A DNA stretch of 64,000 bases from Clostridiales bacterium (lineage in GTDB: Bacteria; Bacillota; Clostridia; Lachnospirales; Lachnospiraceae), in the NCBI GenBank assembly GCA_023663185.1, contig JAMPHY010000013.1:32225-96224 (forward strand). Reading direction: 5' to 3'. The notes beneath the pieces were generated by a model. That model made no database searches and had not been told where the DNA came from. It saw only the letters and a program-made list of their open reading frames with translations. Below are positions 4,551 through 64,000 of this stretch, piece by piece. The position numbers and the translations under genes are program-made. Position 1 is the first letter of the stretch. Each line of letters opens with the position of its first letter.

Positions 4551-4616
4551 CAAATGAATAAAAACGGGACTCCAATGCCTGAAAAGCGGTAAGTCGTCCC
4601 TTATTTTATTCATTTG
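4551..4616. repeat. Long imperfect inverted repeat between addB and cysK
   Basis: The outer 13-bp arms (CAAATGAATAAAA at 4551 and its complement ending at 4615) are perfect, and an inner GGGAC/GTCCC pair extends the stem. It lies between divergent genes, inside the presumed addB leader, so it is not a normal end-of-gene terminator. It may be a leader attenuator for addBA or a remnant palindromic repeat. Confidence 0.5.
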
Positions 4617-4661
4617 CCCTAAACTTATGTATATATTTATAATAGCATATAGGCAGTAATT

Positions 4662-4720
4662 TAGGAATTATAAAAATTTTTTAAATTCCTATTGACATAT
4701 TTCTCGTATCGTAGTATATT
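4662..4720 (+). promoter_or_regulatory. cysK promoter with palindromic candidate operator
   Basis: TTGACA (4692-4697) and TATATT (4715-4720) are separated by 17 bp. Directly upstream and abutting the -35 is an 8-bp perfect inverted repeat, TAGGAATT (4662-4669) and AATTCCTA (4684-4691). The GGAATT core recalls sites of Rrf2-type cysteine regulators such as CymR, which repress cysteine genes in Firmicutes. Promoter and palindrome are seen directly; the regulator is inferred. Confidence 0.7.
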
Positions 4721-4786
4721 TCATATAAATCCTATTGATTAAGTAGTATTTAAACATTTAATAAAAAAACAGGGAGGAATTTTATT

Positions 4787-5725: not shown

Positions 5726-5782
5726 TATGTGTTGTTAATACTGCATGGCTGAATGGATAATAAATGGCTAAATGGCTGAATG

Positions 5783-5970
5783 CGACATGGACGCATATAC
5801 TTCCTCTTGAGGTACGCTCTCGCTCCAGTGTATAAACAAACGAATGCCACGCTATGTGGCATTCTTATTGTTACGCAGCGGTACTAAGCTCAAAAGCTTA
5901 AAAAACAGCTTTTTCACTAAGTACCGGCGTTTTACAAGGACCTCAAGAGGAAATATATAAGTCCATGTCG
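5783..5970. repeat. 188-bp palindromic element with 31-nt inverted ends (MITE-like)
   Basis: Outer arms 5783-5813 and 5940-5970 are inverted copies: GACATGGAC and TCCTCTTGAGGT on the left match ACCTCAAGAGGA and GTCCATGTC on the right. Nested inside are a GAATGCCAC/GTGGCATTC hairpin (5842-5864) and a GGTACT/AGTACC pair (5880-5925). The outer arms are imperfect in the middle. No coding potential. The inner hairpin could terminate cysK. It fills most of the 386-bp gap before the next gene, the rest of which shows nothing else. Confidence 0.65.
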
Positions 5971-6111
5971 TTTAAAGGTTATGAATACTTACATGGTATT
6001 TTATATAAGAGATTTATACAATTAATTTGGGGAAGTGTTATAGCATATATCTAAGATACATGATATCATTCAAGTAGAAAATGAACATAATATCCGAAGG
6101 GAGAATTTCTT

Positions 6112-7851: not shown

Positions 7852-7860
7852 TATCAAAAA

Positions 7861-7886
7861 AAGACTCCGGAAAACTCCGGAGTCTT
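7861..7886. terminator. Bidirectional terminator
   Basis: Perfect 10-bp stem AAGACTCCGG (7861-7870) and CCGGAGTCTT (7877-7886). A run of A precedes it and T-rich sequence follows. It lies between convergent genes and can serve both. Confidence 0.85.
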
Positions 7887-7903
7887 AATTATTGTATCAA
7901 ATA

Positions 7904-9481
7904 TTAGTTACCTGATTTCCAAGCTTCATACTGTGAAGAGAACTCAGCTAAAACGTCCTGATATCCTGCTTCATCAAGAGCTGCCTGATAAGCTTCGATT
8001 GCGCCCGGAACATCTGCCTCTGAGTAACCACCGTTCTCAAGAGGGAATCCGTACTCATCAAATACCTTCTGGCAAGCTGTGTACTGAGCTTCTACAGGAG
8101 ACTTATCAAAACGGAATCCTGCTGCGCTTGATGTTGTAGCTCCACCGTTGAAATCTTTGTACAAGTCGCCAAAACCGTCAGGCTGATTGTACATAGGTGT
8201 AACGATTGTAGCGGAAGCTGACTCCCACATAGAGTGGTTGTACTTACCGTTATCTGTCTGTTCTACATGTCCGTTTGCATCGTAGTTGAAGTCTTCGCCT
8301 TCGATACCGTATGTATAGATATCAGCAAGTTTGCTGTCGGTATAAAGCAGTCCCATGAAATCGATACAAGCCTGTGCCTGCTCAGGTGTGCTGTTTGCTG
8401 TTACGCAGTAGCAAGAACCAAGAGCTGATGTTGAATGTGCCCATCTGCCTGTATAGGACTGTAACACAACTTCCTGACCATAACGGCTTTCTGCTTCATC
8501 ATTAACCGGAAGGTCTGTCCACCATGTAATTGCCCAATCCTGTGACTGAGTTGTGGTATCGCCTGTTACCTTAGTAACATCATCTTCAGAAATGTAACCT
8601 GCATCTGCCCACTTACCCATCAATGTACAGAACTCTAAGTACTCGTCAGTAAGAACAACATCTACAACTGTATCTGTGTCTCTGTCAACTGCAACCCAGT
8701 TAGATGTAGCATCTGCTGTGAAGAAATCAAAGCTGTCAATGTACCATCTGTAGAACATAGCTGTCTTCTGTGTAAGGTAAGGATATTTAAGTCCTTCTGC
8801 CTTAGCATCAGCAAGCATCGGCTCAAGGTCAGCAAGCTTCTTTACATTAGAGAAATCCCAACCGTACTTGTCAGCGATTTCCTTACGAGCTATGATATCA
8901 TAACCTTCTACATTGTCTTTGTATACAGGAATGTAGTAGTTTCTGCCATTATACTTGGTAGCTTCCCACTGTCCTGCGTCCATTGACTCATAAAGAGGTG
9001 TGCCCGGAAGTAAATCGGTAATATCATACACTGCGTTTGCAGGAACAAGGTCGTTTGTTCCGATGGTGCTTTCCCATGAAGCTGTCCACAACAGGTTAAT
9101 CTCGTTGGCAGCCAATGACATGTTAGCCTTATCTGTGTACTCTCCAGAACCGATATCAGTAAGTACGATCTGAACGTTAATCTTGTCTTTGATGTACTCA
9201 TTGATAGCATCCTGTACTTTCTGAACCTGTGCGGAATCAGGAGTTGCAAGATTGAATGTGTTTCTTGTGATATTGATTGTTACAAGATCACCTGAAGCAG
9301 CGTCCCCCCCCGTTGAAGCGGTATCTGTAGAAGAACCGGAATCTGACGGTGTGGTTGTCTGTGTGTCATTGCCCGTAGACGATGACTGGCTGCTGTCTCC
9401 GCTGTCGTTGCCACAGCCAACAAGTAATGTTGCTGTCATAGCGCCAGCTAAAACCAAAGCCAAAAGTTTTTTGATTTTCAT
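7904..9481 (-). CDS. ABC transporter substrate-binding lipoprotein (LplA-like)
   Basis: A 525-residue extracellular solute-binding protein. The N-terminus is a lipoprotein signal: a charged start, a hydrophobic core, and lipobox LLVGC with the cysteine near residue 23. A Ser/Thr/Asp-rich linker follows, then a type 1 periplasmic-binding fold. Two downstream genes encode permeases of the LplB/YtcP class. This type usually imports oligosaccharides or uronates using a shared MsmX-like ATPase encoded elsewhere, and none is encoded here. Ligand unknown. Confidence 0.87.
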   Translation of the reverse strand: MKIKKLLALVLAGAMTATLLVGCGNDSGDSSQSSSTGNDTQTTTPSDSGSSTDTASTGGDAASGDLVTINITRNTFNLATPDSAQVQKVQDAINEYIKDKINVQIVLTDIGSGEYTDKANMSLAANEINLLWTASWESTIGTNDLVPANAVYDITDLLPGTPLYESMDAGQWEATKYNGRNYYIPVYKDNVEGYDIIARKEIADKYGWDFSNVKKLADLEPMLADAKAEGLKYPYLTQKTAMFYRWYIDSFDFFTADATSNWVAVDRDTDTVVDVVLTDEYLEFCTLMGKWADAGYISEDDVTKVTGDTTTQSQDWAITWWTDLPVNDEAESRYGQEVVLQSYTGRWAHSTSALGSCYCVTANSTPEQAQACIDFMGLLYTDSKLADIYTYGIEGEDFNYDANGHVEQTDNGKYNHSMWESASATIVTPMYNQPDGFGDLYKDFNGGATTSSAAGFRFDKSPVEAQYTACQKVFDEYGFPLENGGYSEADVPGAIEAYQAALDEAGYQDVLAEFSSQYEAWKSGN

Positions 9482-48208: not shown

Positions 48209-49708
48209 TTATTCCTCACCTTTACGGCTAAGCATAAGTAAATTCTCGGAAACTGTATTTACCTGTCTGAAAGATTCCTCCACTTCTCCGGTAACATGCT
48301 TCTGCTCCTGCGACTGCTCAACGATTTTATTTGCCTGTGCGACAGTATTTTCAACAAGCTGTTCCATCTGACTAATCATGTTAAGAACCTGTTCGCTCTT
48401 CTCTACTGTATTTGTACTGGAAGCTGCAGCAATACGCACTTTTTCCTCGGACTTTTCTTGAAGCGTTCCTATGCCTTCCGCTTCCTTTTCTATCTCATAG
48501 AGTTTCTCTGTCTCGTTTACTACATTAATAATATTTTCCTTATTTGACTTCTGCACTTCCGTAAGGAGTGCAAAAATTTTATGTATAATCTGTGTAATCG
48601 CATCGCTCGCCTGCTTAGAATCAGCCGCTAACACGCCTACTTCTTCCGCCACAACCGCAAAGCCTTTTCCCATCTCGCCCGCCCTTGCCGCTTCTATGGA
48701 AGCATTGAGCGCTAACAGGTTCGTCTGGCTTGCAATGCCCGCGATTGTATTGGTGAACTCGGAGACTTCCTTCATTCCGCTTTCCAGATTGCTAATCAAG
48801 GTCTCGGTCTGTCTAGCAGAGTTTTCTATAATCTGAATGCTCTTTGTAGTCATGCGCATACGGTCGATGTATCCCTGAATCTGTCTCGTTGTATCCGCTG
48901 ATATTTCCAGTATTTCTTTCATATTGCCAACTACACCGTCCGCATTACCGCTCAATTCATTCATTGAGTCGCGGACGGAATTGACAAATTGAAAGCTTTC
49001 ATTACATTCCTGAAGCGTTGAATTGGCGGAATTAGTAATACTGTCATTGGTATTGGCAAAATCATGAATATATGTGTCCAAGTGTTCTACCACATCATTT
49101 AGTTTCTCGGACGATTTTTCACATTCTTCTATCAAAGCCGCCGTCTGCTTTGTATCCGCGAACTTAAGCAGCATTTGATGGGACAGGTCGGCTATTTTCA
49201 CACAGATAACACTCATAACAACTGTTTCCAAAAGAAAGCCTATGGAACGGGTGATAAACCACATCATATTTGTATCATATTCTATCTGCTGCACGCCAAG
49301 AGAGCGGAAATACAAGGACGCCACCAGCAGAATATAAGAAACAACCGAGACCTGTATGGTAAACTTTTTATCATAATAGAACAAGCTGAATACCATTGCA
49401 AAAGCGTAGGTCATATAGATACCGATTGCCGCGTTAGTAGCCATAATCGCTATTAAGGCGCCAAGTGCAAATGTCGTTAAATATTTAAGAATGTGGATAG
49501 GCATATTCATTTTATATGCTATGCCCGGTCCCATTGTTACTACGATTCCGATAAGAGTAAGCGGAATCATTTCACTGATTTTCATTTGAAAAATCCCTAC
49601 GGCTGAAAGAATTATTAAAAGCGGAAAGACAAGAATCAACCACCGCAGCGCTTTTACCGCCGTCTTTGTAACTCTGGCGTCATTTTCATAAAAAATATCG
49701 TGTTCCAT
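48209..49708 (-). CDS. Methyl-accepting chemotaxis protein with membrane-embedded sensor
   Basis: Start chosen at ATG 49708, preceded by AAGGGGGC; an upstream ATG at 49729 lies before that site. 499 residues. The first ~180 form about six membrane helices with no large extracellular sensor. The signalling hairpin tip is [20 protein letters not shown] followed by [13 protein letters not shown]. It is last in an operon with an AgrC-like kinase and an AgrA-like regulator, so the input may be membrane-related or linked to cell-cell signalling. Confidence 0.9.
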
Positions 49709-49748
49709 AAATAGTAATGCCCCCTTCATATTATGCTATTTTTTCACA

Positions 49749-50492
49749 CTATTCTTCTCTACAATAATAACTGAAATACTGTTCCTTTAATTCCTTGTAA
49801 TTACCCCTCGGTAAATGGATTTTGCTGCCGTTGTCCATACATATTTCTTTTGAATTAAGACTGCCGACATATCCGAGATTGACAATATACGAAACGCCTA
49901 TTTTGACAAACTCCTGATATGGCGAGAGCTGTTTATAAAGTTCCGCCATTGTCATGCGCAGGGTGTACTGTTTGCCATCTGTAAGATACATGTATTGGTT
50001 TTTTCCATGCGCTTCACAGTATACGATATCATTTAACGACACCCGCACAAGCCTGCCTTCAATCCGCAACAGAATATAACGCTTGCGCTCCTCATCAATA
50101 TCCTTGAGCAAATTGTCAAGCAGAGTGAACAATTTTTCTTCCGATATCGGCTTTACCATATATTGCAAAGCGTCAACGTCAAATGCTTCAAGCGCGTGCT
50201 CTTTTGAGGTAGTAAGAAAAACAAGCTTTCCTTTATAATTGATATTGCGAAGTTCTCTCGCCGCCTCGATTCCTAAAGGAAGGGAACCGCTTTTTTTATC
50301 CGGCATATAGATATCCATAAATATCATATCAGGCATATAATTTTCCCTTATCCTTCGCAGCAGTTCGTCCGCATTTTCAAATCTGCGAATCGTAAAATCC
50401 AGATTGGAATGTTGTTTCTCATATTCACGCAGCAATTTTTCCGTCTTTTCAAGTTCTATGGGTTCATCGTCACAAAGCGCAATCAGGTACAT
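49749..50492 (-). CDS. LytTR-family response regulator (AgrA-like)
   Basis: A 247-residue regulator. Receiver: LCDDEPIELEKTEKLL, acceptor Asp in DMIFMDIYMP, TTSKEHALEAFDV, YMVKPISEE. LytTR DNA-binding domain: DIVYCEAHGKNQYMYLTDG and the FVKIGVSYIVNLGYVGSLNS region. It follows the kinase by 21 bp. Likely binds the ACAG-type repeats upstream of the divergent small ORF at 52.0 kb. Confidence 0.92.
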   Translation of the reverse strand: MYLIALCDDEPIELEKTEKLLREYEKQHSNLDFTIRRFENADELLRRIRENYMPDMIFMDIYMPDKKSGSLPLGIEAARELRNINYKGKLVFLTTSKEHALEAFDVDALQYMVKPISEEKLFTLLDNLLKDIDEERKRYILLRIEGRLVRVSLNDIVYCEAHGKNQYMYLTDGKQYTLRMTMAELYKQLSPYQEFVKIGVSYIVNLGYVGSLNSKEICMDNGSKIHLPRGNYKELKEQYFSYYCREE

Positions 50493-50513
50493 ATTGCGTC
50501 CCCCCTATCTCAT

Positions 50514-51827
50514 CTACAAATCGGCTGGAATATTCATAATCAGCCTGAATATAAACACGCCGTTATCATTTTTAAAATCGTATTCTCCTTCATACTTCTC
50601 CGCCGTCTTGATAATACTGGAAACGCCGATTCCACCTGTAAATTCCGTTTTAGGCTGTCCATCTTCAAGTTCAGTCTCCAGCCGGCAGGTATTACTACAA
50701 AAGATAATCAATTTATTTTTCTTTTTCCTTATCATTAAATGAATCGCACATTCACGCGCTCCTGATTGCTTCTTTACTTCCATGCAGGCATAAATGGCGT
50801 TTTCATAAGCGTTGGCAAGTATCGCTACCAAGTCGATATTCGGTATCGCCAAATCCTTGCCGATTTCAATATCGAGTTTAACCTTGATATTCTCATTCCG
50901 CGCCTTTCTAGTGTACGCTGAAAGAATGTTATTAATCGCAGTATTGGCGCATATTTTTTCTACCGCACCCTCGTCTGTTTCCTTATCATACTCCTGTAAA
51001 TATTGCAGCAGTTCGTCCTTCTGCCCGCGTCGCGCATATTCCGCTATCATGGCGTTGTGGTGCCGCACATCATGGCGAAGCCGCCTGCCTGATTCCACCG
51101 AGTCCTCCAAAATCTCAAGCTGACGCTCTAAAAGCCTGTGGTTCATCTGTATCAACTGGTTTTCCCGCTCATATTCCTTCTCTTTACCAAGATGCAGATA
51201 AAAGTGAATCATAAGCAGCTGCAAAGTGCCCGTCAGCACAAAATTAACAAGAATCTGATAAAGACGGTATCCTGTAGCATCTTTTAAGTTCGGGTTTAGG
51301 ATAAATCCAATACCAAGCATAATACTGATAATCATAATGGCGACACTGAACTTATCTACTTCTTTCGTCACATAATCGCTGAAATCCCTAATATTATCTT
51401 TCAATTTCCTATCTATTATAAATGTTATAATCAGGATAAGAATAACACGTGTTATAATATCTGCCCATACATTTCTGTCAAAGAATATAACAGCAACTTC
51501 CAGTCCGCCAATCAGGAATACGGCAAGCAGGTAAAATATCAGCGCCAGTTTATAGATAGACAGATAAACCGAATCTTTGCTCATAAAGATTGCAAAGACC
51601 ATAAAGCACATGTACATTGCAAACGCCACAATCCGCACGCAGCTCTCCCAGTCCACAACATACCAGATACATGCACCGGCAATCAAAATAACGCTGAATA
51701 CGCTATAATAGGCAATCGTCTTTTTTCTGTCAAACCGTGATTCGCTTATGCTGGAAAATAATAAAATCACACCTGCAAGGCTTATTGCAAACCGAATAAG
51801 AGCTACATATACCGAACCGCCTAACAT
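50514..51827 (-). CDS. GHKL sensor histidine kinase (AgrC-like)
   Basis: A 437-residue kinase. Six to seven N-terminal membrane helices (to ~205), DHp with RRLRHDVRHHNAMIAEY (phospho-His), and a GHKL ATPase with AILANAYENAIYACME (N-box) and FTGGIGVSSIIKTAEKYEGE. This is the class that senses cyclic or linear peptides. No AgrB/AgrD is adjacent, so the ligand source is unknown. Confidence 0.92.
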   Translation of the reverse strand: MLGGSVYVALIRFAISLAGVILLFSSISESRFDRKKTIAYYSVFSVILIAGACIWYVVDWESCVRIVAFAMYMCFMVFAIFMSKDSVYLSIYKLALIFYLLAVFLIGGLEVAVIFFDRNVWADIITRVILILIITFIIDRKLKDNIRDFSDYVTKEVDKFSVAIMIISIMLGIGFILNPNLKDATGYRLYQILVNFVLTGTLQLLMIHFYLHLGKEKEYERENQLIQMNHRLLERQLEILEDSVESGRRLRHDVRHHNAMIAEYARRGQKDELLQYLQEYDKETDEGAVEKICANTAINNILSAYTRKARNENIKVKLDIEIGKDLAIPNIDLVAILANAYENAIYACMEVKKQSGARECAIHLMIRKKKNKLIIFCSNTCRLETELEDGQPKTEFTGGIGVSSIIKTAEKYEGEYDFKNDNGVFIFRLIMNIPADL

Positions 51828-51947
51828 ATATTCTATTTCTCCTTTGGATTTAGAGTCATAAAAATTAAGTCTTAAAAATTATACCACATATTAATCGACT
51901 GAAAAAGAGATAAACCGACACAGAGCACAGATTGCACCTTTTACGGT

Positions 51948-51997
51948 ACAGTTTGCAAGAAAAGGCTCTAGAAGAGCACAGTCTGATTTGTTATAAT
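51948..51997 (+). promoter_or_regulatory. Activator-type promoter with LytTR-like direct repeats
   Basis: Direct repeats ACAGTTTG (51948-51955) and ACAGTCTG (51978-51985) are 30 bp apart (about three helical turns), the second over the -35 region. TATAAT is at 51992-51997 with no good -35. Two weaker ACAG copies lie at 51919 and 51926. This fits a promoter that needs an AgrA-type activator. Confidence 0.5.
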
Positions 51998-52032
51998 AGA
52001 AATCGATATCAGACAAATAGGGAGACTTAAAT

Positions 52033-54212: not shown

Positions 54213-54343
54213 TTCAAAAAGGGCTTCCCGAAAATCTCGGAAAGCCCCATAAATTTAACTTTTTCCTAATGAATTCGTTAGAATTCTGTTTACTCAATAA
54301 TGCTGGCAACCCTGCCAGAACCAACTGTACGTCCACCCTCACG
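54213..54343 (-). other. tuf 3'-end copy 1 with terminator (attachment-site-like)
   Basis: Minus-strand 54343-54290 encodes REGGRTVGSGRVASIIE and stop, the end of elongation factor Tu. The 3' flank carries a strong terminator GGGCTTTCCGAGA/TCTCGGAAAGCCC-type hairpin (54221-54248). Upstream of the first Arg codon the match to EF-Tu stops at once. Next to normal chromosomal genes on the left, this is probably the original chromosomal tuf end, displaced by insertions. Confidence 0.85.
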
Positions 54344-54441
54344 TTTCTACGGTGGGTTATTCTGCATTGCAAACCATGATAAAATGGGGATTTTTTATTT
54401 GTATTATCCTCAATTTCGGCTTATTTTTCTGGTTATTGAAA

Positions 54442-54465
54442 ATTTTAGAAGCATTTTAGAAGCAC
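54442..54465. repeat. Arm-like direct repeat, left end of module A
   Basis: Tandem TTTTAGAAGCA twice, ending in C. A 22/24 match in the same orientation is at 56770-56793 near the other end of the module. Paired repeats at both ends of an element suit arm-type integrase sites. Confidence 0.5.
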
Positions 54466-54469
54466 AAAG

Positions 54470-54797
54470 CTTAAATACGTTTTAGATAAATCTTGGGTAA
54501 ACCTTGGATACTGCTTGAGTAAATTTATCTTCGCCATTCGTCTGTAAATCGCCAGCCAATGGCTAGCGATTTAATTGTAGCATCATTAACCTCATTATCA
54601 TACTAAACAGCAACGGCTCTTGTTTAAACCTTGGATAAATCTTGTTTAAATTACATTATTGTTTCAAAATCTAAAACAAGCACAATTTTACCTTTATTCA
54701 TTAAAAACTCTTATCTTTCCATTAGCTAATTCTAACTCGTCTGTTCCAGCATAGACATCTATCTTGAATGAATCTTGTTTAAACCTTGTTTAAATTT
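54470..54797. repeat. 11-bp iterons of module A
   Basis: Three clusters of CTTG-NN-TAAAY at exactly 11-bp spacing: 54490-54525 (three units), 54618-54651 (three) and 54773-54797 (two). They fill the 470-bp gap between tuf copy 1 and the AlbA_2 gene, together with a 12-bp-arm palindrome AAATCGCCAGCC (54546-54572). No ORF. Helical phasing indicates cooperative protein binding. Confidence 0.7.
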
Positions 54798-54815
54798 CAA
54801 TATTAAAACAAGAAC

Positions 54816-56543
54816 TCATTTTAATATCCAACTAGATTTTTGCTGGTTTTCCGAGTCTGTATCAATAATACCTTGTTTTCTTAGAGCTGTAAGCATATTT
54901 CGTATTTTGTTTTCTTTTTGAACATCACTCAAAACATCCGGCAACTTATCCCACAATAACTCCCGAATATCTTTCTTTTTAGCTTTTCTGTACTGTTTCA
55001 GGTATTCAACAATCAAATCCTTATAATACTTATCGTCAAATCCTTTGTTTTTAATATAAGTCGTGCTTTCATCAATACTTTTAGCCGCTGATGCTGATAA
55101 ATACAGACTTGTCAACCTGCCTTCCACCAGCTTCTGTCCCCGCAGTCTGTCTACATCTTCCTTTTCTACCGGCAGACCTTTCTGTATTCGGTCAAGCAAA
55201 AACACCGTCTGCAAGTCTAAGTCCTGATGATCATACAAGATGTGCATATAACTGTCGTTCAACGTTTTTCCGTAAATTGTTACTTCAACCTGTGTTCCGG
55301 AGGAAACATTATAATCAGGCATCGGAAAATACTTTGCTTTTTGAATGTTATACGCACGACGGATTCCCAAAGTTGCAGTATCAATCATATGAAATGCTGC
55401 CATAGATTCCGCCAACAGTTGATTCCTGTAAAATGGCGGACTATAGCTTGCTTCCAAAACATTCTCAATTTTCTGAGGGATAAAATCACCCGGATTGGTA
55501 AATTTGAGCTTGTCCTCAAATTCATTGACATAAATCCTGCCGCCTAATTGATAATTTGTGTGCGCAATACAGTTGTTCAGCAACTCGCGCATTAGCCAGC
55601 TATCATACTGCTCCGTTTCCATCGGAAACAATGTCATCTGATTTGGCATATACCTGTAAGTCAGATTCCTAACTTTTGCAAACACCTTGTCTACTACATT
55701 GATAAATGGAATTTTGAAAATGGCATAGTCCCTATCCATATTGTCAGCGCCGTATAATCTCCACATAATGCTCGGTGCAGACTGAAACATATAATCATAA
55801 TCTGAATTTCCTAACAAAAGCATTCCTGCGTGTGTGATTTTACCATTTATCATGAGTTTTAACTTTGTTAAAAACTGCTCATCACTCATGGCATCCACTT
55901 CCTCGGAAATGTGTTCCTGATTCATTTTTTCCTTATACTTCTCTCTGGCTAAAGCAACCGCATCTTTATCTAAATGCTCTATGCTTGCTTGTTCCAGCAC
56001 TCGTTTGGACCAATCCCTTCGCTCTTGTGAACGAATTGCGTCTATCTTGTACTGTTTTAACGGCACAAGACTTTCTCCAGCACGCTCATAATAATTTGTT
56101 TTCCAATCGGTAGGTATGCCTGTTGCTGCTGCCGGAATTTTAAACATAAGAACCCGATATTCTTTGTCATTAACAACTGGGAATATTTCTATAATATCAT
56201 AAAATGTCATACCATTGGTAGTATCTCTGGATATTTCATATTTAAAACGTTCCAGCAAACTGCTATCGCCATTTTTGTAAGCTGTTCCTACAATCTTCTT
56301 TGTCTTAGTTTTTTGTTCCTCACCAACACCAAAAATGAGCCAACCATATTGTTGTTGGCATAAGTTCGCCTCGTTGCTGATTGCAGAAAAATATCTACCA
56401 ATTTTATCTGTATCATAACCGCCTTTGGCTTCCTTAAATTCGACTATCTCATATTCCCATCTTTTCATGAGATTTTCTAGTATCTCATAATATTCGATGT
56501 CTTTTACAGGCTTATTATATTCAAAATATGACATATCCCTCAC
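54816..56543 (-). CDS. Schlafen AlbA_2/GHKL-type ATPase protein, module A
   Basis: A 575-residue protein. The N-terminal AlbA_2 domain has EFKEAKGGYDTDKIGRYFSA and GWLIFGVGEEQ. Then comes a middle region (IPTDWKTNYYERAGESLVPL; RSQERRDWSKRVLEQA) and an HATPase_c_4-like part (LMRELLNNCIAHTNYQLGG; LKFTNPGDFIPQ). C-terminal ~80 residues are likely winged-helix (RKAKKKDIRELLWDKLPDVL). This is the COG2865 class of putative transcriptional regulators/helicase-related proteins. It is the only gene in its 2.6-kb tuf-bounded module and is paralogous to the gene at 57.2-58.9 kb. Confidence 0.85.
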   Translation of the reverse strand: MRDMSYFEYNKPVKDIEYYEILENLMKRWEYEIVEFKEAKGGYDTDKIGRYFSAISNEANLCQQQYGWLIFGVGEEQKTKTKKIVGTAYKNGDSSLLERFKYEISRDTTNGMTFYDIIEIFPVVNDKEYRVLMFKIPAAATGIPTDWKTNYYERAGESLVPLKQYKIDAIRSQERRDWSKRVLEQASIEHLDKDAVALAREKYKEKMNQEHISEEVDAMSDEQFLTKLKLMINGKITHAGMLLLGNSDYDYMFQSAPSIMWRLYGADNMDRDYAIFKIPFINVVDKVFAKVRNLTYRYMPNQMTLFPMETEQYDSWLMRELLNNCIAHTNYQLGGRIYVNEFEDKLKFTNPGDFIPQKIENVLEASYSPPFYRNQLLAESMAAFHMIDTATLGIRRAYNIQKAKYFPMPDYNVSSGTQVEVTIYGKTLNDSYMHILYDHQDLDLQTVFLLDRIQKGLPVEKEDVDRLRGQKLVEGRLTSLYLSASAAKSIDESTTYIKNKGFDDKYYKDLIVEYLKQYRKAKKKDIRELLWDKLPDVLSDVQKENKIRNMLTALRKQGIIDTDSENQQKSSWILK

Positions 56544-56769
56544 CTTTATAAAATACTTTTGTCCTACTCCACAGTTTACATAGCAACTTTCATTTTTTCT
56601 TTATTATATTTTATCAAACAAATTACATTCAGTAAACTAATAATCAAAATATTCTATTATCAAAAATGGAAATGGTGAAATCAACTGTTAATATAATATA
56701 AATCCATATTAATAGAATTTTTCCAATCAATCATAAAAGCATAATTCTGCAACTTATCATTTTCCAAAT

Positions 56770-56793
56770 ATTTTAGAATCATTATAGAAGCAC
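56770..56793. repeat. Arm-like direct repeat, right end of module A
   Basis: ATTTTAGAATCATTATAGAA then GCAC matches the repeat at 54442 at 22 of 24 positions. It lies 27 bp before tuf copy 2. The remainder of 56544-56819 is AT-rich, with no ORF, and should contain the AlbA_2 promoter. Confidence 0.5.
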
Positions 56794-56819
56794 GTGCAAA
56801 TTACATAACAAATTTCCAG

Positions 56820-56949
56820 TCAAAAAGGGCTTCCCGAAAATCTCGGAAAGCCCCATAAATTTAACTTTTTCCTAATGAATTCGTTAGAATTCTGTTTATT
56901 CAATAATGCTGGCAACCCTGCCAGAACCTACTGTCCTACCACCCTCACG
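56820..56949 (-). other. tuf 3'-end copy 2 with terminator
   Basis: Minus-strand 56949-56896 again encodes REGGRTVGSGRVASIIE-stop. Together with the hairpin and 3' flank it is nearly identical to copy 1 over 130 bp. The differences are synonymous changes in the coding part (for example GAG to GAA, CGT to AGG). The match ends at the same codon as copy 1. Confidence 0.85.
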
Positions 56950-57112
56950 GTTTTCTGTTATAAAAATTATTGTGTTTTCTGGTGATTTTTAGGGCATTTT
57001 TTGATAGTTTTTTGCTTGATATACACCTCGCATCTGACGTTTTGGAAATTTTTGTTATCATGGTGTTATCACAAATGTATTTCCTGCATCTTTCATATTA
57101 ACTTAATCTTCC

Positions 57113-57222
57113 TTGTTCTAGTCCAACTTAGTTCAATTTTAGTCCAAGATTTAGTTCAACTTAGTCTAAAACAACCAAATTTCACATACTTTTAGTGCAA
57201 CTTAGTCCAAAATCAGTTCAAG
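57113..57222. repeat. ~11-bp iterons of module B
   Basis: About eight copies of AGTYCAA spaced 10-12 bp (57120-57170 and 57193-57222), running into the last codons of the AlbA_2 gene. The unit differs from that of module A. The sequence 56950-57112 also has a TTATCA-type repeat (TTATCATGGTGTTATCA near 57055) and no ORF. Confidence 0.68.
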
Positions 57223-58948
57223 TTTTTTGTCCATTAGTCAGCATCCACCTTGCCTTATGCCCGCTTCCTTCGACACAAACTATACCTTCTTTTTTCATAT
57301 TTTGAAGAATATTAGAAACTTTTCTGGTTTTCTGCCTTTCATCCATGATTGCTGGCAAAGCGCCTTCCAATACAGCTTTTATGCCAGACACTTTCGCACT
57401 TTTCATTGTTTTTAAAGCATTTATAATTAGCTGTTGATATATATCTTTATCTAACCCCTTGTTCCTTACATATTCTGCTGATGTCCCCACAATGTTAGCA
57501 ATCTTATATGACACAAACAAGTTGGGATATCTCCCCTCTACTAATCCGACTTTTTTCAGAGAATTATAATCCTCTTTGGAAATAACCTCTTTTTTCTGTA
57601 CTTTATCCAATAAAAACACCGTATGCAAATCCAAATCTCCATTACTATGAAGCAATTGCGTATAATTTCTATCAAGAATTTTTCCATATAAAGTAACCTT
57701 TACACGATTAATATCTTCCAGATCATATGTTGGCAACGGAAAACATTTATCCCGTTGAATTTGATACATCATGGGAATCCCCATTGCATTCGTATCTATC
57801 ATATAAAGGTTGACCATCGCATGACATAAAAAACCATTCCTATAATACGGCGGCTTATACCCCTCCTCAAGTGTACGCTCTACAGTTTCCGGAATAAAGC
57901 TGCCTTCATTAATAAATACCAATCTATCCTCAAATTCTTCCACATTAATTTTGCCTCTGAGCTGGTAATTAGAATGTGCAATACAATTATTCAAAATTTC
58001 TTTCACCACATCAGGATCATATTGATCTACTTCATCCGGAAACAAAGTCTGTTGTCCCGCAATATAACGATATTTTTCATTCCTAATCTTTGCATAAGTT
58101 TTGTCTACTGCCAACAAAAGCGGCATATCAAAATGCTCATATGCTTTAACAGAGCCATCTCCGTTATATAAAGTCCATGTTATTCTTGGAATAAAACCAT
58201 CAAACAAATAATGAGATTCCTCTTTTCCCAAAAGAATCAGCGCTGTATTTGTCACTTTTCCCTTTATTAATAATCCTGCTTTATTCAGTATCTCTATATC
58301 AGACATCTTTTCCAGCATCTCTGTAGACCTCTTGGAAGCCTTTTGCTTTTTAACAAACAATGTACGTGCATATTTCACAGCTTCTGCATCCAAATCTTCC
58401 ATATCTGCATTTTCCACAATTTCTTTCGACCAATCAACGCCTACCTGACTGCGAATCAAGTCTACTTTATCCATTGGCAATGGACAGGTATTTTCATCTT
58501 CCCTTGCGTAAGCAGCACCATTCCATGTTGTCGGAATACCACGAAGTGCGGGCGGAATCTGAAAAGCAACTACTCGCTTTCCTTCTAATTTCAACTCATA
58601 TATCTCCATAAATGTCAGGCGCTCATTCGTTCCGACAATTATTTCTTTTTTCATCCTCTGCAAACTTCCGTCTTTTCTATATGCCGTTCCAACAACTTCC
58701 TTTGTATTTGTAACGCCAAATATCAGCCACGCCTCTTTCATATCCCTGATATTCGCCTCATTGCCTAATGCAGAAAAATATTTCCCGATATCTTTAAAAG
58801 AATAGTTAGTTTTTGCCTCCTTGAACTCCACAACTTCATCTTCAAAATTTTCTATCATTTGAATAATTTTTTCTTTAAGCTGGTTTTCAGAATATATCAT
58901 GTCTTCTTTCTCCAATATCATCATTTCATTATGGTTCTTGCATTGCAT
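57218..58948 (-). CDS. Schlafen AlbA_2/GHKL-type ATPase protein, module B
   Basis: A 576-residue paralogue of the module A protein with the same domain order: EFKEAKTNYSFKDIGKYFSA and AWLIFGVTNTKEVVGTAYR (AlbA_2); IPTTWNGAAYAREDENTCPL; VDWSKEIVENADMEDLDAEA; VVKEILNNCIAHSNYQLRG (ATPase N-box); LVFINEGSFIPETVE; C-terminal winged-helix-like GIKAVLEGALPAIMDERQKT. Clearly diverged yet equal in length. Same position relative to tuf end and iterons. Confidence 0.85.
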   Translation of the reverse strand: MQCKNHNEMMILEKEDMIYSENQLKEKIIQMIENFEDEVVEFKEAKTNYSFKDIGKYFSALGNEANIRDMKEAWLIFGVTNTKEVVGTAYRKDGSLQRMKKEIIVGTNERLTFMEIYELKLEGKRVVAFQIPPALRGIPTTWNGAAYAREDENTCPLPMDKVDLIRSQVGVDWSKEIVENADMEDLDAEAVKYARTLFVKKQKASKRSTEMLEKMSDIEILNKAGLLIKGKVTNTALILLGKEESHYLFDGFIPRITWTLYNGDGSVKAYEHFDMPLLLAVDKTYAKIRNEKYRYIAGQQTLFPDEVDQYDPDVVKEILNNCIAHSNYQLRGKINVEEFEDRLVFINEGSFIPETVERTLEEGYKPPYYRNGFLCHAMVNLYMIDTNAMGIPMMYQIQRDKCFPLPTYDLEDINRVKVTLYGKILDRNYTQLLHSNGDLDLHTVFLLDKVQKKEVISKEDYNSLKKVGLVEGRYPNLFVSYKIANIVGTSAEYVRNKGLDKDIYQQLIINALKTMKSAKVSGIKAVLEGALPAIMDERQKTRKVSNILQNMKKEGIVCVEGSGHKARWMLTNGQKT

Positions 58949-59081
58949 CGCATATGTAAAGTGTTTACAATATTTATTCTATTTTCCAATCTTCTATACC
59001 ATATTTCTCCATAAGTTCATTATGCTTTTGCTTCGCCATCTTTCGTAATATACATAGATTTTGAACGATGTGAACCCTGTC

Positions 59082-59705
59082 TTATGTAATCTTTCTCGTC
59101 AATACATTAACCCATTGTTCATTTTCCCTACCTTTACGAACATCTCCTGTTATAAAAATATCTTCTACCAAAAAACCATTACTTATCATAAGATTTTTTA
59201 ATCCAAGTTCTTCATAATCATAAAACAATCTGCCTTTATCCATCCTCATACCTTTTCCATATTTAAAAGAAGCATATAATATTCCCTCGTCTTTTAAAGC
59301 ATCACAAAATCGCTTTAGCACCCCACTTATTTCTGTATACGAAACATGCAAAAGAGACGCACATGCCCATATTCCATCAAACTCCTGCTGAAACTGCATT
59401 TCCTCAAATCTCATACAAAGAACTTTTTTCTTCATCAGTTTCTCAGCCTCTTCACATATTCTTCTGGAGGCATCCAGTGCTGTTACTTGATAATCTGCAT
59501 CTAAAAATACTCTTGCATCCCGCCCGCTTCCGCATCCAGCGTCTAAGATATGAATTTTGGTTCTCTCACTTTCGTTTATATTAATATGTTCCTTCTGATT
59601 CAAAAGACGTAAAAATTTATCCCTGCAAAAAGCCATATCAGAGTCTTTTGTTGCACGGCAAAACTCTTCTGCATTATCATCATAATAAGATATTGTCTGA
59701 TTCAT
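59082..59705 (-). CDS. Class I SAM-dependent methyltransferase
   Basis: A 207-residue small-molecule-type methyltransferase: ILDAGCGSGRDARVFLDADY (SAM loop), VTALDASRRICEEAE, FDGIWACASLLHV. It resembles TehB/UbiE-like enzymes and has no target-recognition domain, so DNA methylation is unlikely. Its start overlaps the HNH gene by 26 bp, so the two are translationally coupled. Confidence 0.85.
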   Translation of the reverse strand: MNQTISYYDDNAEEFCRATKDSDMAFCRDKFLRLLNQKEHININESERTKIHILDAGCGSGRDARVFLDADYQVTALDASRRICEEAEKLMKKKVLCMRFEEMQFQQEFDGIWACASLLHVSYTEISGVLKRFCDALKDEGILYASFKYGKGMRMDKGRLFYDYEELGLKNLMISNGFLVEDIFITGDVRKGRENEQWVNVLTRKIT

Positions 59706-60819
59706 TACCGCCTTTCACATCCTTATAAATCCAATCTTTAAATCCGCAATTCCTTGCAGATTGATATACCGGCTGCAAAATCTCTTCTAATGAGCGGGAA
59801 AACTTCATAAAATCCTGTCCTTTTTGATAAATTTTCCTTTTCACTGCATTATCATTTAAATGCTCTTTTGCACATTTTTCAAATTCATCATGCAAAGCAT
59901 CGTATTTCCACATCATCTCATAAGAAATAAATTCCAGCTTTGCAAGTTGTGGAAAATAAATATTCCAATCCGGCAAATTATTGTTCTTACTACTATTAAT
60001 GCTTCGCGTTGTAGGATGCAAATTCCAAAATTCATCATGAGCCACATACGACCATGGTACAAAATGGTCTATTGAAATATCTTTCTCTGATAACTGCATA
60101 TGTCCGTATATTTCATGAATTGGCTGAATCTCCAGTAACAGTTTCCAATATTTTTTAACTTTCTCTAACTTACGCTCCTGAGGTGGATATAATTTATCTG
60201 CAATTCCCGGAACGCTTGGATTACGTTTTTGCAAATATATAATAATATTATATTGTAGCCAGCCTTTTATAATCTCTTGATTTTGATGTATATATGTAAT
60301 CCATTCCGGATTCAAACGTATAACCGTCTGCATACCGTTTAAAGTTTCAAAATAATACATTAGTCTCCGTTCCCGGTTAATTTTAGAGATAAGTTCTCCT
60401 TCCGGTACATCCCATTCTTTGCCTTTAACCTTATCCATAAATGGAGCTTGAATACGATATGGAACGTTCTTTGTCAGGATTCTTTTCCGCCTTACGACTT
60501 CTTTATCCGTACAATTACTTAAATAATTGATGATATTTTCCTTCTTTTCGGAAGATTTGAGTTGCGATATCTGCTGCAGATAAAGCACTAAACCTTCCAA
60601 AGTATCCCTAGGTCCCAGATTCAGATGGTATTCAATTACCATATACCACGCATCTGCAATCATTTCATCAACCAAGTCTTCATACGTTATGCAGATTTTA
60701 CCAGCCAACGCCTTTGTCACAACCGCCTGAAACCAAAAAAATTTATAACATTCGCTTGTATTGTCGAATATTCTGCTTAAATATTGGATTTCTAAAGTAT
60801 CAGAATATGGAAGCTGCAT
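59680..60819 (-). CDS. HNH endonuclease-domain protein
   Basis: A 379-residue protein. The HNH core is near residues 247-285: SIDHFVPWSYVAHDEFWNLH, PTTRSINSSKNNNLP. The N-terminal ~240 residues (SRIFDNTSECYKFFWFQAVV; helical) are of unknown fold. Coupled with the methyltransferase behind it in module B. A defence or element-maintenance role is possible. Confidence 0.8.
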   Translation of the reverse strand: MQLPYSDTLEIQYLSRIFDNTSECYKFFWFQAVVTKALAGKICITYEDLVDEMIADAWYMVIEYHLNLGPRDTLEGLVLYLQQISQLKSSEKKENIINYLSNCTDKEVVRRKRILTKNVPYRIQAPFMDKVKGKEWDVPEGELISKINRERRLMYYFETLNGMQTVIRLNPEWITYIHQNQEIIKGWLQYNIIIYLQKRNPSVPGIADKLYPPQERKLEKVKKYWKLLLEIQPIHEIYGHMQLSEKDISIDHFVPWSYVAHDEFWNLHPTTRSINSSKNNNLPDWNIYFPQLAKLEFISYEMMWKYDALHDEFEKCAKEHLNDNAVKRKIYQKGQDFMKFSRSLEEILQPVYQSARNCGFKDWIYKDVKGGNESDNILL

Positions 60820-60984
60820 ATGAATTATCCTTTTACCTTATATAGTTATTGGCATTCCCTGTCTATGTAAAAACCTGTATTATAATTTGCTGATTATGTT
60901 TGATGCTTTTTTACATTATACTATATTGATTTAGTATTTAACAACAAATATGAAAAATTATATTTTCTCCGGTTAATAAACTCA

Positions 60985-61095
60985 AAAAATCTCCCGCCGA
61001 TTTTTCGACGGGAGACAGTAGTTTTACTTATAGAATCAAGATTACTCAATGATAGACGCAACCCTACCAGACCCAACGGTCCTACCACCCTCACG
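60985..61095 (-). other. tuf 3'-end copy 3 with a different terminator
   Basis: Minus-strand 61095-61042 encodes REGGRTVGSGRVASIIE-stop with yet other synonymous codons (GGG, TCT, GCG, ATC). The terminator is distinct: CTCCCG/CGGGAG stem (60991-61014). So protein sequence is kept while bases diverge, as if from another host's tuf. 60820-60984 otherwise shows only AT-rich promoter-like DNA. Confidence 0.82.
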
Positions 61096-61196
61096 ATACT
61101 TTAATAGCGTTTTTTGTGGTATTTTCTATGCTTTTTATTGCGAAAATCAGCATAAAATCGCTGTTTTTATTTAGTGTATTTTTATTTACATGATTT

Positions 61197-61267
61197 CTTG
61201 GCACCGTTTTGGCACCAAGACCACGCTTCTCCTTATCCATTCTTATTACATGGTGCTAGCACCATGT
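61197..61267. repeat. Repeats at the start of the third element
   Basis: TTGGCACC occurs at 61198 and 61209 (11-bp period). A perfect 20-bp palindrome, ACATGGTGCTAGCACCATGT, covers 61248-61267 and shares the GGTGC/GCACC core. As in modules A and B, the short repeats lie just right of a tuf end. The rest of 61096-61344 has no ORF. Confidence 0.65.
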
Positions 61268-61344
61268 ATATATAATCAGCAAGAAAAGGGTATATTTTCA
61301 TACACTTATCAAACAATACAATTCACGAATAAATTCAAATCCAA

Positions 61345-61995
61345 TCAATTCCTTGAATAAATAATCGAGTAGCGGCATCCAGCTAAACATTTAAGACAAG
61401 TAATACATTTATAGACATCTACAATATCATCGCGGCTTATACCTGCTTCCCACTTTTTCCCATGTATTGCTTGCACTGGACAAACTTTAACACATAAATT
61501 GCATTCGCCGCATCTACTAGAAATTATTTCAGATTTGACAGCATTCAAAGGCATATCTGTAAGCACAGAACACATAGAAATTGCTGCTCCATATTTTTCT
61601 GTGACCAACAGGTTATTTTTTCCAATCCACCCTAATCCCGACATTGTAGCTATTTTTTTATGTGGCAATATAGAACTTTTAGTTTTCTCATCGTATTCCC
61701 CTCTGAAATCTATAGCATTTTCAGATTGCGAAATAGCCTTATATCCCCTTTTCTGGATAATCGTAACAAGTTCGTCAGCTAATTCATCCGTTTTATTTTC
61801 ATAATTCACAAAAACAGAATAATCTGTCTCTTTTTCATGATTCAATTTATCAATATATTCTTTAGGCAAAACTTTAACTAATAGAATTGCATAAAAATAT
61901 CCTCTATTTTCCTCTACGGATAATGAGGTAATATCAACAACTTTTATAATATCTATATGATTTTCTTCTGCAAAATTCTGTATAATTTCTTGCAT
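61345..61995 (-). CDS. Short 4Fe-4S protein, QueG (epoxyqueuosine reductase)-like
   Basis: Start at ATG 61995 with GGAGGGG just before it. 216 residues. The N-terminus is a QueG-like cobalamin-binding fold (ATMSGLGWIGKNNLLVTEKY; GAAISMCSVLTDMPL). Two ferredoxin-type clusters follow: CGECNLCVKVCPVQAIHG and CITCLKCLAGCRYS. It is shorter than true QueG (~380 residues) and lacks the HEAT-like tail, so it is a relative of unknown substrate. Cargo of the third element. Confidence 0.82.
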   Translation of the reverse strand: MQEIIQNFAEENHIDIIKVVDITSLSVEENRGYFYAILLVKVLPKEYIDKLNHEKETDYSVFVNYENKTDELADELVTIIQKRGYKAISQSENAIDFRGEYDEKTKSSILPHKKIATMSGLGWIGKNNLLVTEKYGAAISMCSVLTDMPLNAVKSEIISSRCGECNLCVKVCPVQAIHGKKWEAGISRDDIVDVYKCITCLKCLAGCRYSIIYSRN

Positions 61996-62091
61996 AACCC
62001 CTCCAATAATCTCCATTTTTTGATTATATCACTTTCTATTTTTATTTACAACAAAAATATAGGGCATAGCAACCGCCACGCCCCACATTTA

Positions 62092-62406
62092 TTATCGCTC
62101 TAATGATTTCTCAATCTTCCATTTCTGCCCTTTCAAATCGTTCTGTTTCTCATAAAGACTATTCCGCTCTTTGCAAAGTTCTTTCATGCGCTCCAACTGC
62201 GCCCGCACTCCCTCCCGGCAGTCTGGCTCTATCATTTTATATTCCCCGGTCAGATTGCGGATTGTATTATTATTTTCTTTTATCTGCTCCGAAAGGCACA
62301 CCCAGTCTATCAGATTTTGCACTTCCTTATCCGTTTCGTAAAGGTCTGTTTCTGCTACAATCTTAGCACACAGCCGCACCATGACTTTCTTTTCCATATC
62401 CGTCAT
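62092..62406 (-). CDS. Small coiled-coil protein next to the relaxase
   Basis: A 104-residue, highly charged, helical protein (RAQLERMKELCKERNSLYEK). No named family recognised. It starts 18 bp after the relaxase stop, so the two are one unit. Small helical proteins in this place often assist mobilisation. Confidence 0.75.
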   Translation of the reverse strand: MTDMEKKVMVRLCAKIVAETDLYETDKEVQNLIDWVCLSEQIKENNNTIRNLTGEYKMIEPDCREGVRAQLERMKELCKERNSLYEKQNDLKGQKWKIEKSLER

Positions 62407-62423
62407 ATCCTAAATCCCCTTTC

Positions 62424-63794
62424 CTATCGACTCACTTCAAAGGCACGTTTCGGGCATTTATTTACCCTCTCTGCCTGTTCCAATGCCTTTGACCGTTCCA
62501 CTATCGACTGCACCTGTTCTTTGCCTAAATGACGCTCCAAGCGCCCTAAATCAGACACTTTTTCCTGCAATCGGTCTATGGTATCGTTCTGCTCCATGAC
62601 CTTATCTGTCAAGCGGCTAATCTGTGTCTGTCGTCCGTTCACTTTGGCAGTCAGCTTCTTACTTTGTTCTGTAAGCTGTACGCACTTAATTGTCAGATTT
62701 TTTACTACATCTTTTAGCTTCTCCACAAGCGGTAAAGCCTTTTTATCCCGGTATGCCTTTGCGCTCATCAATGCCACCGGCTCTGCCAACTGCCATTTTA
62801 CATCTTCATCATAGACATGAATATTGCGCTCCATGACTTCTTTTGACTGCACCATTTTATTAAGTTCATGCTGTAACTTTTTCTGCTGGTTTTCCAATTT
62901 CTCATTTTCGGATAACAGCTTTTCCTTATCCTCTGTCAGCGTTTCCGTCTGTTCTTTCAGCAATAGGTTTGTCGCGGAAAGTTCCGATACTTCCTGCCGG
63001 ATTGTTTCGCCCTCTTTCCGTATCTGCTCCGTTTCCTGTTCTTCCGCTATCTGCTGATGAAGAATATTGGATAATTCCTCTTTATTGCCGGAAATCGTCT
63101 GTTCCAGTTCCGCAATCTCTTTCTGTCTTTCCTGTTTCTCAAAATCGAGTACAGACAAATGCTTGTTATGCGTTCCTAGCTGTTTCCACTGTACGCCATA
63201 CCGCTCCATAACTTTTGAAAGTTCCTGCTTCTCCGATTCTATCCACTGATTCCATTCTGTCATTCCCCTTGTGCCGCCTTTGAATCCCTGCTCCGACAAT
63301 GCACCCTTTAGTGATACTCTGGTATCAAGTCCACGCTTGCTGTTACGGATAAAAGGAACAAAATCAATGTGGATATGCGGTGTCTGCTCGTCCATGTGCA
63401 GATGGCTTGAAAATACATGAAGATTGGGATTTCTTTTCTGAAACTGCTCCATGAACTCACACAAAATATCTTTTGCCAACTGCCCCTCATTGCTCTGCAC
63501 GTTCATATCATCTTTATTACCGATTTGGAAGATAACCTCATAAAACAATTTCTCCTGCTTACCCCGGCGTATCTTCTCATAATAATCGTCAATCTTTCGG
63601 TCACTCCGCTTCTGCTTTGCATTGTAGCGTTCGAGTGCTTCATCAAAAAGAGTGTGATAGACTTGTTTTATATCCGAATGGCAAAATTCCACGTTATCCC
63701 GGCTTCGTTCCTTATCCACATTTTTAGCTGTAAAGGCTCTTGTGTTGTGATTGACAGAACCCTTTCCCATCATGCCGCTAATCGTTCTTTCCAA
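62424..63794 (-). CDS. Pre/MobV-type mobilisation relaxase
   Basis: Start at TTG 63794, nine bases after GGAGG; ATG 63773 or an ATG at 63833 are alternatives. About 456 residues. Relaxase domain: GSVNHNTRAFTAKNVDKERS and the histidine motif HLHMDEQTPHIHIDFVPF. From ~215 on, a very long coiled coil (GNKEELSNILHQQIAEEQET and onwards) as in Pre/Mob proteins. It should nick oriT and start transfer with help from a conjugative element. It marks the third segment as mobilisable. Confidence 0.88.
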   Translation of the reverse strand: MERTISGMMGKGSVNHNTRAFTAKNVDKERSRDNVEFCHSDIKQVYHTLFDEALERYNAKQKRSDRKIDDYYEKIRRGKQEKLFYEVIFQIGNKDDMNVQSNEGQLAKDILCEFMEQFQKRNPNLHVFSSHLHMDEQTPHIHIDFVPFIRNSKRGLDTRVSLKGALSEQGFKGGTRGMTEWNQWIESEKQELSKVMERYGVQWKQLGTHNKHLSVLDFEKQERQKEIAELEQTISGNKEELSNILHQQIAEEQETEQIRKEGETIRQEVSELSATNLLLKEQTETLTEDKEKLLSENEKLENQQKKLQHELNKMVQSKEVMERNIHVYDEDVKWQLAEPVALMSAKAYRDKKALPLVEKLKDVVKNLTIKCVQLTEQSKKLTAKVNGRQTQISRLTDKVMEQNDTIDRLQEKVSDLGRLERHLGKEQVQSIVERSKALEQAERVNKCPKRAFEVSR

Positions 63795-63862
63795 TAGGCA
63801 TATCCTCCACATTCCCAATATTTGTATCGCCATTTTTACTGCGCCGACAGGCGCAAGGCTTT

Positions 63863-63929
63863 GTTACTTTCCCGAAAGTAACGCAAAAGCACTTTCGACA
63901 CGCTCCGCTTTATCAAAAGTGCCTTTGCG
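63863..63929. other. Candidate oriT upstream of the relaxase
   Basis: GTTACTTTC-CC-GAAAGTAAC (63863-63882) is a perfect 9-bp hairpin. It is followed by CGCAAAAGCACTTT (63882-63895) with a 13/14 complement at 63916-63929, loop of 20. Two adjacent hairpins directly upstream of a relaxase are typical for a transfer origin. The nick site is not identified. Confidence 0.55.
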
Positions 63930-64000
63930 CCCTGCCGGGGGCTTTTCCGTCCGTCACTGTCTGATTTTATCCAGTTCCCAATGCCATGTATTGTTTATCC

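Follow-up and report, generated by a model that had tools for sequence, protein, structure and literature searches.

An apparent tandem array of integrative elements inserted at the tuf (elongation factor Tu) 3' end in Lachnospiraceae

In staphylococci, staphylococcal cassette chromosome (SCC) elements insert at the 3' end of rlmH by means of serine recombinases and form tandem composite islands, some of which are devoid of recombinase genes. A related arrangement was analyzed in this study in a stretch of 64,000 nucleotides from a bacterium of the Lachnospiraceae (the window, always taken at its full length), in which the last codons of tuf, the gene of elongation factor Tu (EF-Tu), occur three times. 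As with SCC, tandem islands stand behind a house-keeping gene and some are recombinase-less, whereas the enzymes are serine recombinases in SCC and tyrosine integrases here. The window was read as holding the tuf-distal portion of a series of integrative elements lined up in tandem at the tuf 3' end, with a probability of roughly 0.93.

The closest described systems are those of streptococci, in which integrative and mobilizable elements (IMEs) and cis-mobilizable elements (CIMEs) accrete in tandem at the 3' ends of rpsI, rpmG, and rplL (Coluzzi et al. 2017, PMC5357655). CIMEs and microCIMEs, which were surveyed in S. salivarius, have kept their attachment (att) sites, have lost the genes for integration and transfer, and stand in tandem with IMEs (Guedon et al. 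2017, PMC5704250; Lao et al. 2020, PMC7563491). The present locus is of the same kind, at another gene in other hosts. Similar to the streptococcal IMEs of PMC5357655, the elements are small, combine a tyrosine integrase with a relaxase, occupy the 3' end of a translation gene, and stand in tandem with decayed elements; unlike them, they target tuf, and their hosts are Lachnospiraceae and near relatives. Moreover, one integrase clade, one core, and several repeat types were found here, whereas the accretion integrases reported in PMC5357655 share 21–69% identity with no particular relatedness. Compared with the CIMEs of PMC5704250 and PMC7563491, neighboring units of the window differ in repeat type, while a 258-bp interval in a related genome (G076) resembles a microCIME. 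The order of arm-DNA-binding, SAM-like, and catalytic domains, as seen in the one integrase scanned, is that of the arm-binding-domain tyrosine recombinases of PMC8138268 (Mol Syst Biol 2021). In the titles and abstract openings covered by a partial literature search, tuf was not found as an integration site, which does not establish its absence from print, and the word "tuf" occurred 0 times in the available main texts (supplements excluded) of PMC12884075, PMC5357655, PMC5704250, PMC8138268, PMC4701971, and PMC7563491.

The three copies in the window lie at exactly the positions that an earlier note on this DNA had given for EF-Tu ends (Table 1). All of them begin at CGTGAGGGTGG, share the core CGTGAGGG, and encode one and the same peptide, REGGRTVGSGRVASIIE followed by a stop, which corresponds to the C-terminal codons of EF-Tu; because one peptide is obtained from all three, the coding differences among them are synonymous. 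The common start codon and the synonymous changes were thus as the note had described them. So were its terminator after each copy, visible by eye as a hairpin with a T-run at all three, and the missing tuf body, with only 3, 15, and 12 open codons preceding the motif. A coding match of 54 nt that occurs three times with a common start rules out chance. Copies 1 and 2 lie within a 133-nt direct repeat (54214–54346 and 56820–56952) of 95% identity that includes the terminator, and copy 3 shares 76% identity with copy 1 over 70 nt.

Table 1. Features of the tuf-end array in the window (distances are counted from the core of the copy named).
Feature	Positions	Strand	Remarks
tuf 3' end, copy 1	54290..54343	minus	core CGTGAGGG at 54343
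Terminator-like hairpin and T-run, 3' of copy 1	54213..54248	minus	by eye
tuf 3' end, copy 2	56896..56949	minus	
tuf 3' end, copy 3	61042..61095	minus	
Element 1	54344..56949	minus	2606 bp; without integrase; GCTTCT-type pairs at both ends
Distal arm-like repeat pair of element 1, GCTTCTAAAATGCTTCTA	54446..54463	minus	11-bp spacing; -120 from copy 1 core
Proximal pair of element 1, GCTTCTATAATGATTCTA	56774..56791	minus	+158 from copy 2 core; second repeat one base off
Element 1 cargo, 575-aa protein	54816..56543	minus	HATPase_c_4, RecG C-terminal-like
Element 2	56950..61095	minus	4146 bp; without integrase; distal pair alone recognized
Distal pair of element 2, GATAACACCATGATAAC	57054..57070	minus	-121 from copy 2 core
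Element 2 SLFN_AlbA_2 and HATPase_c_4 protein	57218..58948	minus	
Element 2 SAM-dependent methyltransferase	59082..59705	minus	
Element 2 HNH_4 protein	59680..60819	minus	96% identity in G007, there directly 3' of intact tuf
Element 3, distal part	61096..64000	minus	GGTGCC-type; cut by contig end
Distal pair of element 3, GGTGCCAAAACGGTGCC	61200..61216	minus	-121 from copy 3 core
Element 3 cargo, 4Fe-4S protein	61345..62016	minus	
Element 3 Mob_Pre relaxase	62424..63833	minus	

In a survey of tuf ends in relatives, the comparison showed a common site and anatomy, an associated integrase, and matching repeat types. EF-Tu was searched at a threshold of 1e-60 in 61 genomes (this one and 60 relatives), of which 47 gave a match. 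Subsequently, tuf and its downstream DNA were taken from 25 genomes of the genus and 8 others of the order, many of these stretches being short because of a contig end. An intact tuf with a second tuf end in the same orientation was found in three genus loci (L058, L059, and L063; L numbers denote loci and G numbers genomes), and a looser search added L067 and L068. The earlier note had predicted an intact tuf ahead of the orphan ends with a tyrosine or serine integrase alongside, and this layout, with a tyrosine integrase, was present in relatives. A 61-base query gave 90 matches in 54 of the 77 genus genomes, 25 of which had at least two. After 60 further stretches were added, the genus survey held 84 core-bearing copies, 43 joined to a tuf body and 41 orphan; the count excludes matches without the exact core (G073, G062, G098, and G082; by eye) and some matches near contig ends or in loci outside the retrieved stretches. 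In a scan of named genomes, integrase relatives were encoded in 148 stretches, and the best 77 loci, mostly from Lachnospiraceae judging by their titles, were kept. Of these 77, 68 had a tuf end and 9 had none, some of the latter being short contigs. The sources of the 77 loci include Blautia wexlerae, Fusicatenibacter saccharivorans, Eubacterium plexicaudatum ASF492, Clostridium sp. MD294 (complete chromosome), and Lachnospiraceae GAM79 (complete genome).

The elements follow one plan: the core, a tail with its terminator, a pair of repeats spaced by 11 bp (usually at +139), the body, and a pair of the same type at -120/-121 from the next core. The tail consists of the 54 nt of codons and stop after the core. 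The recurrent repeat types are GGTGCC, GGCTAC, GGCTCT, GGTTCT, GCTTCT, GATAAC, GACCT, and GGTAAC. Certain of these are only a single letter apart, and other types occur as isolated cases. A pair at -123 to -118 was found in 31 of the 39 orphan copies with at least 160 bp upstream, against 20 of 4641 background positions, and a recognized pair stood at +80 to +300 in 67 of 86 tuf-attached copies. In the case of the genus, 17 core-to-core intervals were picked by hand (with the integrase column also entered by hand), and a recognized pair was present at both ends in 11 of them, the types agreeing in 11 of 11. Window element 1 and the interval of G033 are two-sided only with loosened patterns and otherwise one-sided, and the agreement in G076 is trivial because its two cores share one pair. 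The interval of G073 was scored as one-sided, with a one-base-off GGCTAC pair readable at its distal end. When the 38 intervals bounded within one locus were classified by script, 20 had the same type at both ends (G076 included), 6 had different types, 11 were one-sided, and 1 had no pair. On inspection, four of the six (window element 1 with a degenerate repeat, L226, and L227 and L228 with a pair at +260) were of the same type, as were two of the one-sided intervals (L058 with a degenerate pair and L230 with one at +249). The final tally over the 38 was 26 same, 2 different (L214 and L238), and 10 undecided.

Integrases occur in GGTGCC, GGCTAC, GGCTCT, GGTTCT, and GATAAC elements and in single cases of other types. 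That of L063 carries the PF14657 arm domain, the PF14659 SAM-like domain, and the PF00589 catalytic domain in this order, and R195, K218, H294, R297, and Y330, which we take to be the catalytic R, K, HxxR, and Y residues, are invariant in six integrase sequences. Over all loci, a same-strand tuf end lies upstream of 66 of 85 distinct integrase sequences at a median of 1924 bases (1066 to 7992), and the remaining 19 have none. Among 62 sequences, the identity of the arm domain was 0.90 within repeat types versus 0.47 between them, compared with 0.90 versus 0.68 for the SAM-like domain and 0.89 versus 0.69 for the catalytic domain; these values are pairwise means over related sequences rather than independent tests, and L238 was labeled by its distal pair while its arm domain resembles the GGTGCC type. 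By this comparison, the arm domain of the integrase tracks the repeat type. The gene order in L263 is a regulator, a small helix-turn-helix gene that can be read as Xis-like, the integrase, an AAA protein, a relaxase, and cargo; L235 is ordered likewise without a homologue of the three relaxases used as queries. Of the 38 bounded intervals, 24 contained both an integrase and a homologue of these relaxases, 5 an integrase only, 2 a relaxase only (L067 and L150), and 7 neither, so that 24 of the 29 integrase-bearing elements had the relaxase and 5 did not. As most bounded loci were chosen for encoding an integrase, these shares are no census. Separately, a GCTTCT-type unit in L258 (16783–21074) has a relaxase-like open reading frame and no integrase in the 4.3 kb seen. 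In G022, a GGCTAC-type integrase gene is in two pieces about 117 kb apart (L066 and L160; G022:C7:44464-45078 and 161756-162277), and the tuf ends there are 137.7 kb apart.

In the genome of the window itself, the right edge of the window is the end of contig C4 (96224 bases). The 54-contig draft gave no EF-Tu match at 1e-60, the best match being 89.8 bits versus a family cut-off of 522.4, and the best match for EF-G, 644.7 bits, was likewise below its cut-off of 659.4. Therefore, the tuf-bearing stretch seems to be missing from the assembly. In G007, an intact tuf runs directly into DNA that matches window positions 59090–61095 with 95% identity over 2008 bases, and because of this junction behind copy 3 the window array very likely lies at tuf. 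No repeat pair was found after the tuf of G007, which also shares the LytTR/kinase region of the window (48209–52018, 89.9% identity). The G007 locus looks like the state before insertion of element 3. The earlier note had called for an empty site with tuf directly followed by pseF; that junction was not found, and the pre-insertion state in G007 was obtained for element 3. The HNH protein also occurs in G036 (84% identity), about 6.6 kb beyond the last tuf end there, which suggests that the stretch behind copy 3 may be an old tuf neighbor or an old element.

Element 3 looks like an IME, judging from its Mob_Pre relaxase. The relaxase region shares 87.3% identity with L059 and 86.7% with L063, and the last 52 bases of the element share 96% with L063. 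In that locus, tuf is followed in turn by the integrase, the AAA protein, and the relaxase, the first two lying in the part that is missing from the window. Element 1 is flanked on either side by a core and a GCTTCT pair (with a one-base deviation in one repeat), as a CIME is; element 2 has a core at each end and a repeat pair, of GATAAC type, at the distal end only. No integrase or transfer genes were found in either by open reading frames, integrase tblastn, or Pfam. Since they encode no integrase, elements 1 and 2 are not autonomous and are best taken as integrase-less, CIME-like remnants or passengers. Their HATPase_c_4 proteins share 44% identity. Copy 1 is probably the native tuf end. 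Downstream, it has no pair of a recurrent type, and a TGAAATT repeat with 11-bp spacing at +127 appears chance-like; this fits the displaced chromosomal end that the note had seen in it. Its attribution of copies 2 and 3 to elements also fits, given the GCTTCT-type pair after copy 2 and the G007 state for copy 3.

From these comparisons we infer the order of events, the function of the arms, the crossover point, excision, and any movement of elements 1 and 2. An arm-binding tyrosine integrase would join a circular element to the core CGTGAGGG, at the start of the last 17 EF-Tu codons. Because the element would supply its own last codons, stop, and terminator, EF-Tu would remain intact, with the previous end shifted downstream past the element. 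The newly formed tuf end would in turn be a target, so later elements would land upstream of earlier ones. The repeat pairs, about 139 bp inside one end and about 120 bp inside the other, would likely be the arm sites of the matching integrase. Copy 1 would then be the oldest end, copies 2 and 3 would each have been the tuf end in turn, and a fourth copy, together with tuf, would be expected past the edge of the contig, adjacent to the element 3 integrase.

The tails were consistent with this sequence of events. A canonical tail was present in 87 of 88 tuf-attached copies, the single exception being a different but open tail in Tyzzerella, and in 68 of 82 orphan copies, in agreement with the claim of the note that the copies were once selected as working tuf ends. 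Looser tails in orphans would be expected if displacement frees the copies from selection. A terminator-like hairpin was present behind 79 of 86 attached copies and behind 66 of 80 orphans, the corresponding figure for shuffled DNA being 13 of 166. The bases at -30 to -1 were unconserved in 81 orphans, and CGTGA was near invariant from position 0. Upstream of the core, 1 of 34 variable positions showed an association of base with repeat type (z>3) in 66 typed tuf-attached copies; the tail had 4 such positions out of 25 (+5, +20, +41, and +47), and the stretch just after the stop had 6 of 8. Taken together, these data place the crossover probably, if weakly, near the start of the tail.

Several observations weigh against the tandem array of integrative elements. 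By script, 8 of the 39 orphans had no pair at -120 (one of them, L058, has a degenerate pair), and no downstream repeat was found for 57 of 164 copies. In L214 and L238, one end differs in type from the other, and it is the proximal pair that matches the integrase; each can be read, without proof, as two elements whose middle core was lost. The integrases of L212 and L281 have no tuf end in view within 10 kb upstream of each. The draft of this genome lacks tuf as well as the integrase and proximal end of element 3. Tail identity over 54 nt was not grouped by repeat type (0.839 within versus 0.837 between, a difference reached in 98 of 300 shuffles), and the whole tail was accordingly rejected as a transferred type signature. 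Lastly, G018 has two orphan ends on contigs other than that of tuf, one of them behind pseF, which possibly reflect a secondary site or a rearrangement. These ends are L290 (G018:C24) and L291 (G018:C8); the pseF-adjoining stretch also has a pseI-like gene (by eye) and a relative of the element 1 protein, and pseF borders copy 1 in the window too.

Arrays of mixed repeat type were found on single contigs, including those of isolates and one complete chromosome. In NZ_RAZG01000011 (L279 and L260, with about 460 bases between them outside the view), tuf is followed by a GATAAC pair, a core between GATAAC and GGCTCT pairs, and a core between GGCTCT and GGTGCC pairs. KE159546 (L249 and L258) holds GGTTCT, GGTGCC, and GCTTCT units with tuf outside the view, G036 (L059/L263 and L154) has GGCTCT and then GATAAC, and the complete chromosome NZ_CP097810 (L235) has GGTGCC and then a GGCTCT pair. 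The 258 bp of G076 separate two cores. A further locus, L148 (G097:C18), has three orphan tuf ends, two of them just 1014 bp apart; between two orphan ends stand an open reading frame, which we take to be a transposase, and genes that lie beyond the array in G010, a layout that suggests rearrangement.

Elements 1 and 2, or at least element 1, may instead be satellites that keep arm sites for same-type integrases acting in trans, which we consider possible but doubtful. Five of the 11 agreeing genus intervals are without an integrase (window element 1, G012, G033, G070, and the trivial G076), and an integrase-like N-terminus, in an 80-aa open reading frame near a contig end, stands behind a GCTTCT-type tuf end in G086 (L176). 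However, searches with two proteins in 77 genus genomes at E 1e-60 gave no second occurrence of the same integrase-less unit. Relatives of the element 1 protein reached 59% identity (G018 and G017) and, partially, 45% (G096), none of them inside a bounded tuf element; the G018 relative is about 7 kb from an orphan tuf end. Moreover, the HD-type protein of G012 has just a 40% relative, element 2 has no proximal pair, and decay would give an identical picture. Tentatively, and no more probably than that, tuf might be a shared dock with one core specificity and about eight arm specificities. The arm code would set which integrase moves which unit, many elements would coexist at one essential gene without cross-excision, and integrase-less cargo, some of it defence-like, would be moved in trans by matching residents as an addressable cassette array.

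A prophage family with tuf as attB is highly improbable. Tyrosine integrases of the arm, SAM-like, and catalytic layout are also common in phages. However, a scan of viral contigs gave only 3 distant relatives (22–41% identity) among 200 pattern-matching stretches, and phage origin was rejected; homologues of the query relaxases occur in 24 of the 29 integrase-bearing bounded elements. An origin by simple segmental duplication, or from extra tuf genes that decayed, with no site-specific recombinase involved, is barely credible: elements 1 and 2 have no integrase and the draft encodes no close one of the L063 type (best 26% identity over most of its length), but the copies share their start codon with the conservation beginning at CGTGA, and fixed-distance repeats go together with a linked integrase clade.

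Regarding the cargo of the elements, 10 hand-chosen proteins were checked for anti-phage functions. An AbiL-like pair stands behind tuf in G018 (8e-73 and 9e-23), a type II restriction enzyme is found in a unit of G010 (2.6e-152), and a weak dGTPase match (3e-7) occurs in G012 beside an AlbA-type protein with a partial pAgo match. The four proteins of the window gave weak or partial matches against PADLOC (7e-4 to 4e-12), with none for the HNH protein, and no system was named. That the cargo may be defence-related is a reading and not a result.

Short near-repeat arrays (54491–54815 and 57116–57226), CTTGTTTAAA-like and AGTCCAACTT-like, stand behind the AlbA-type genes of elements 1 and 2, on the side toward the repeat pairs; similar arrays occur in L067 and L068 and are not arm-spaced in general. 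They were rejected as extra arm sites because lag 11 was not enriched at -600 to -124 of 75 orphan ends (lag 10, 24; lag 11, 20; lag 12, 20). Of 75 orphan ends, 19 have the palindrome ATGGTGCTAGCACCAT, or its central part, upstream of the tuf-end core at -169/-170 or -176/-177; 9 of these ends are of GGTGCC type and 10 of GGCTCT type, and they include those of the window (about 61265, -170 from copy 3), L059, L211, and L217. The palindrome is possibly a site of a regulator or Xis.

In conclusion, small mobile islands appear to have stacked up in succession at the final tuf codons in Lachnospiraceae. An integration hot spot of common gut bacteria (Blautia, Fusicatenibacter, Eubacterium plexicaudatum, and others) would thereby be mapped to a gene that is both essential and highly expressed. 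The repeat arrays behind tuf may explain why many of the retrieved draft contigs end soon after this gene, and the matched sets of repeats and arm domains lend themselves to studying site choice by arm domains. In these bacteria, mobile DNA would supply the 3' end of tuf together with the terminator, clearly for the DNA after the stop and weakly for the codons.

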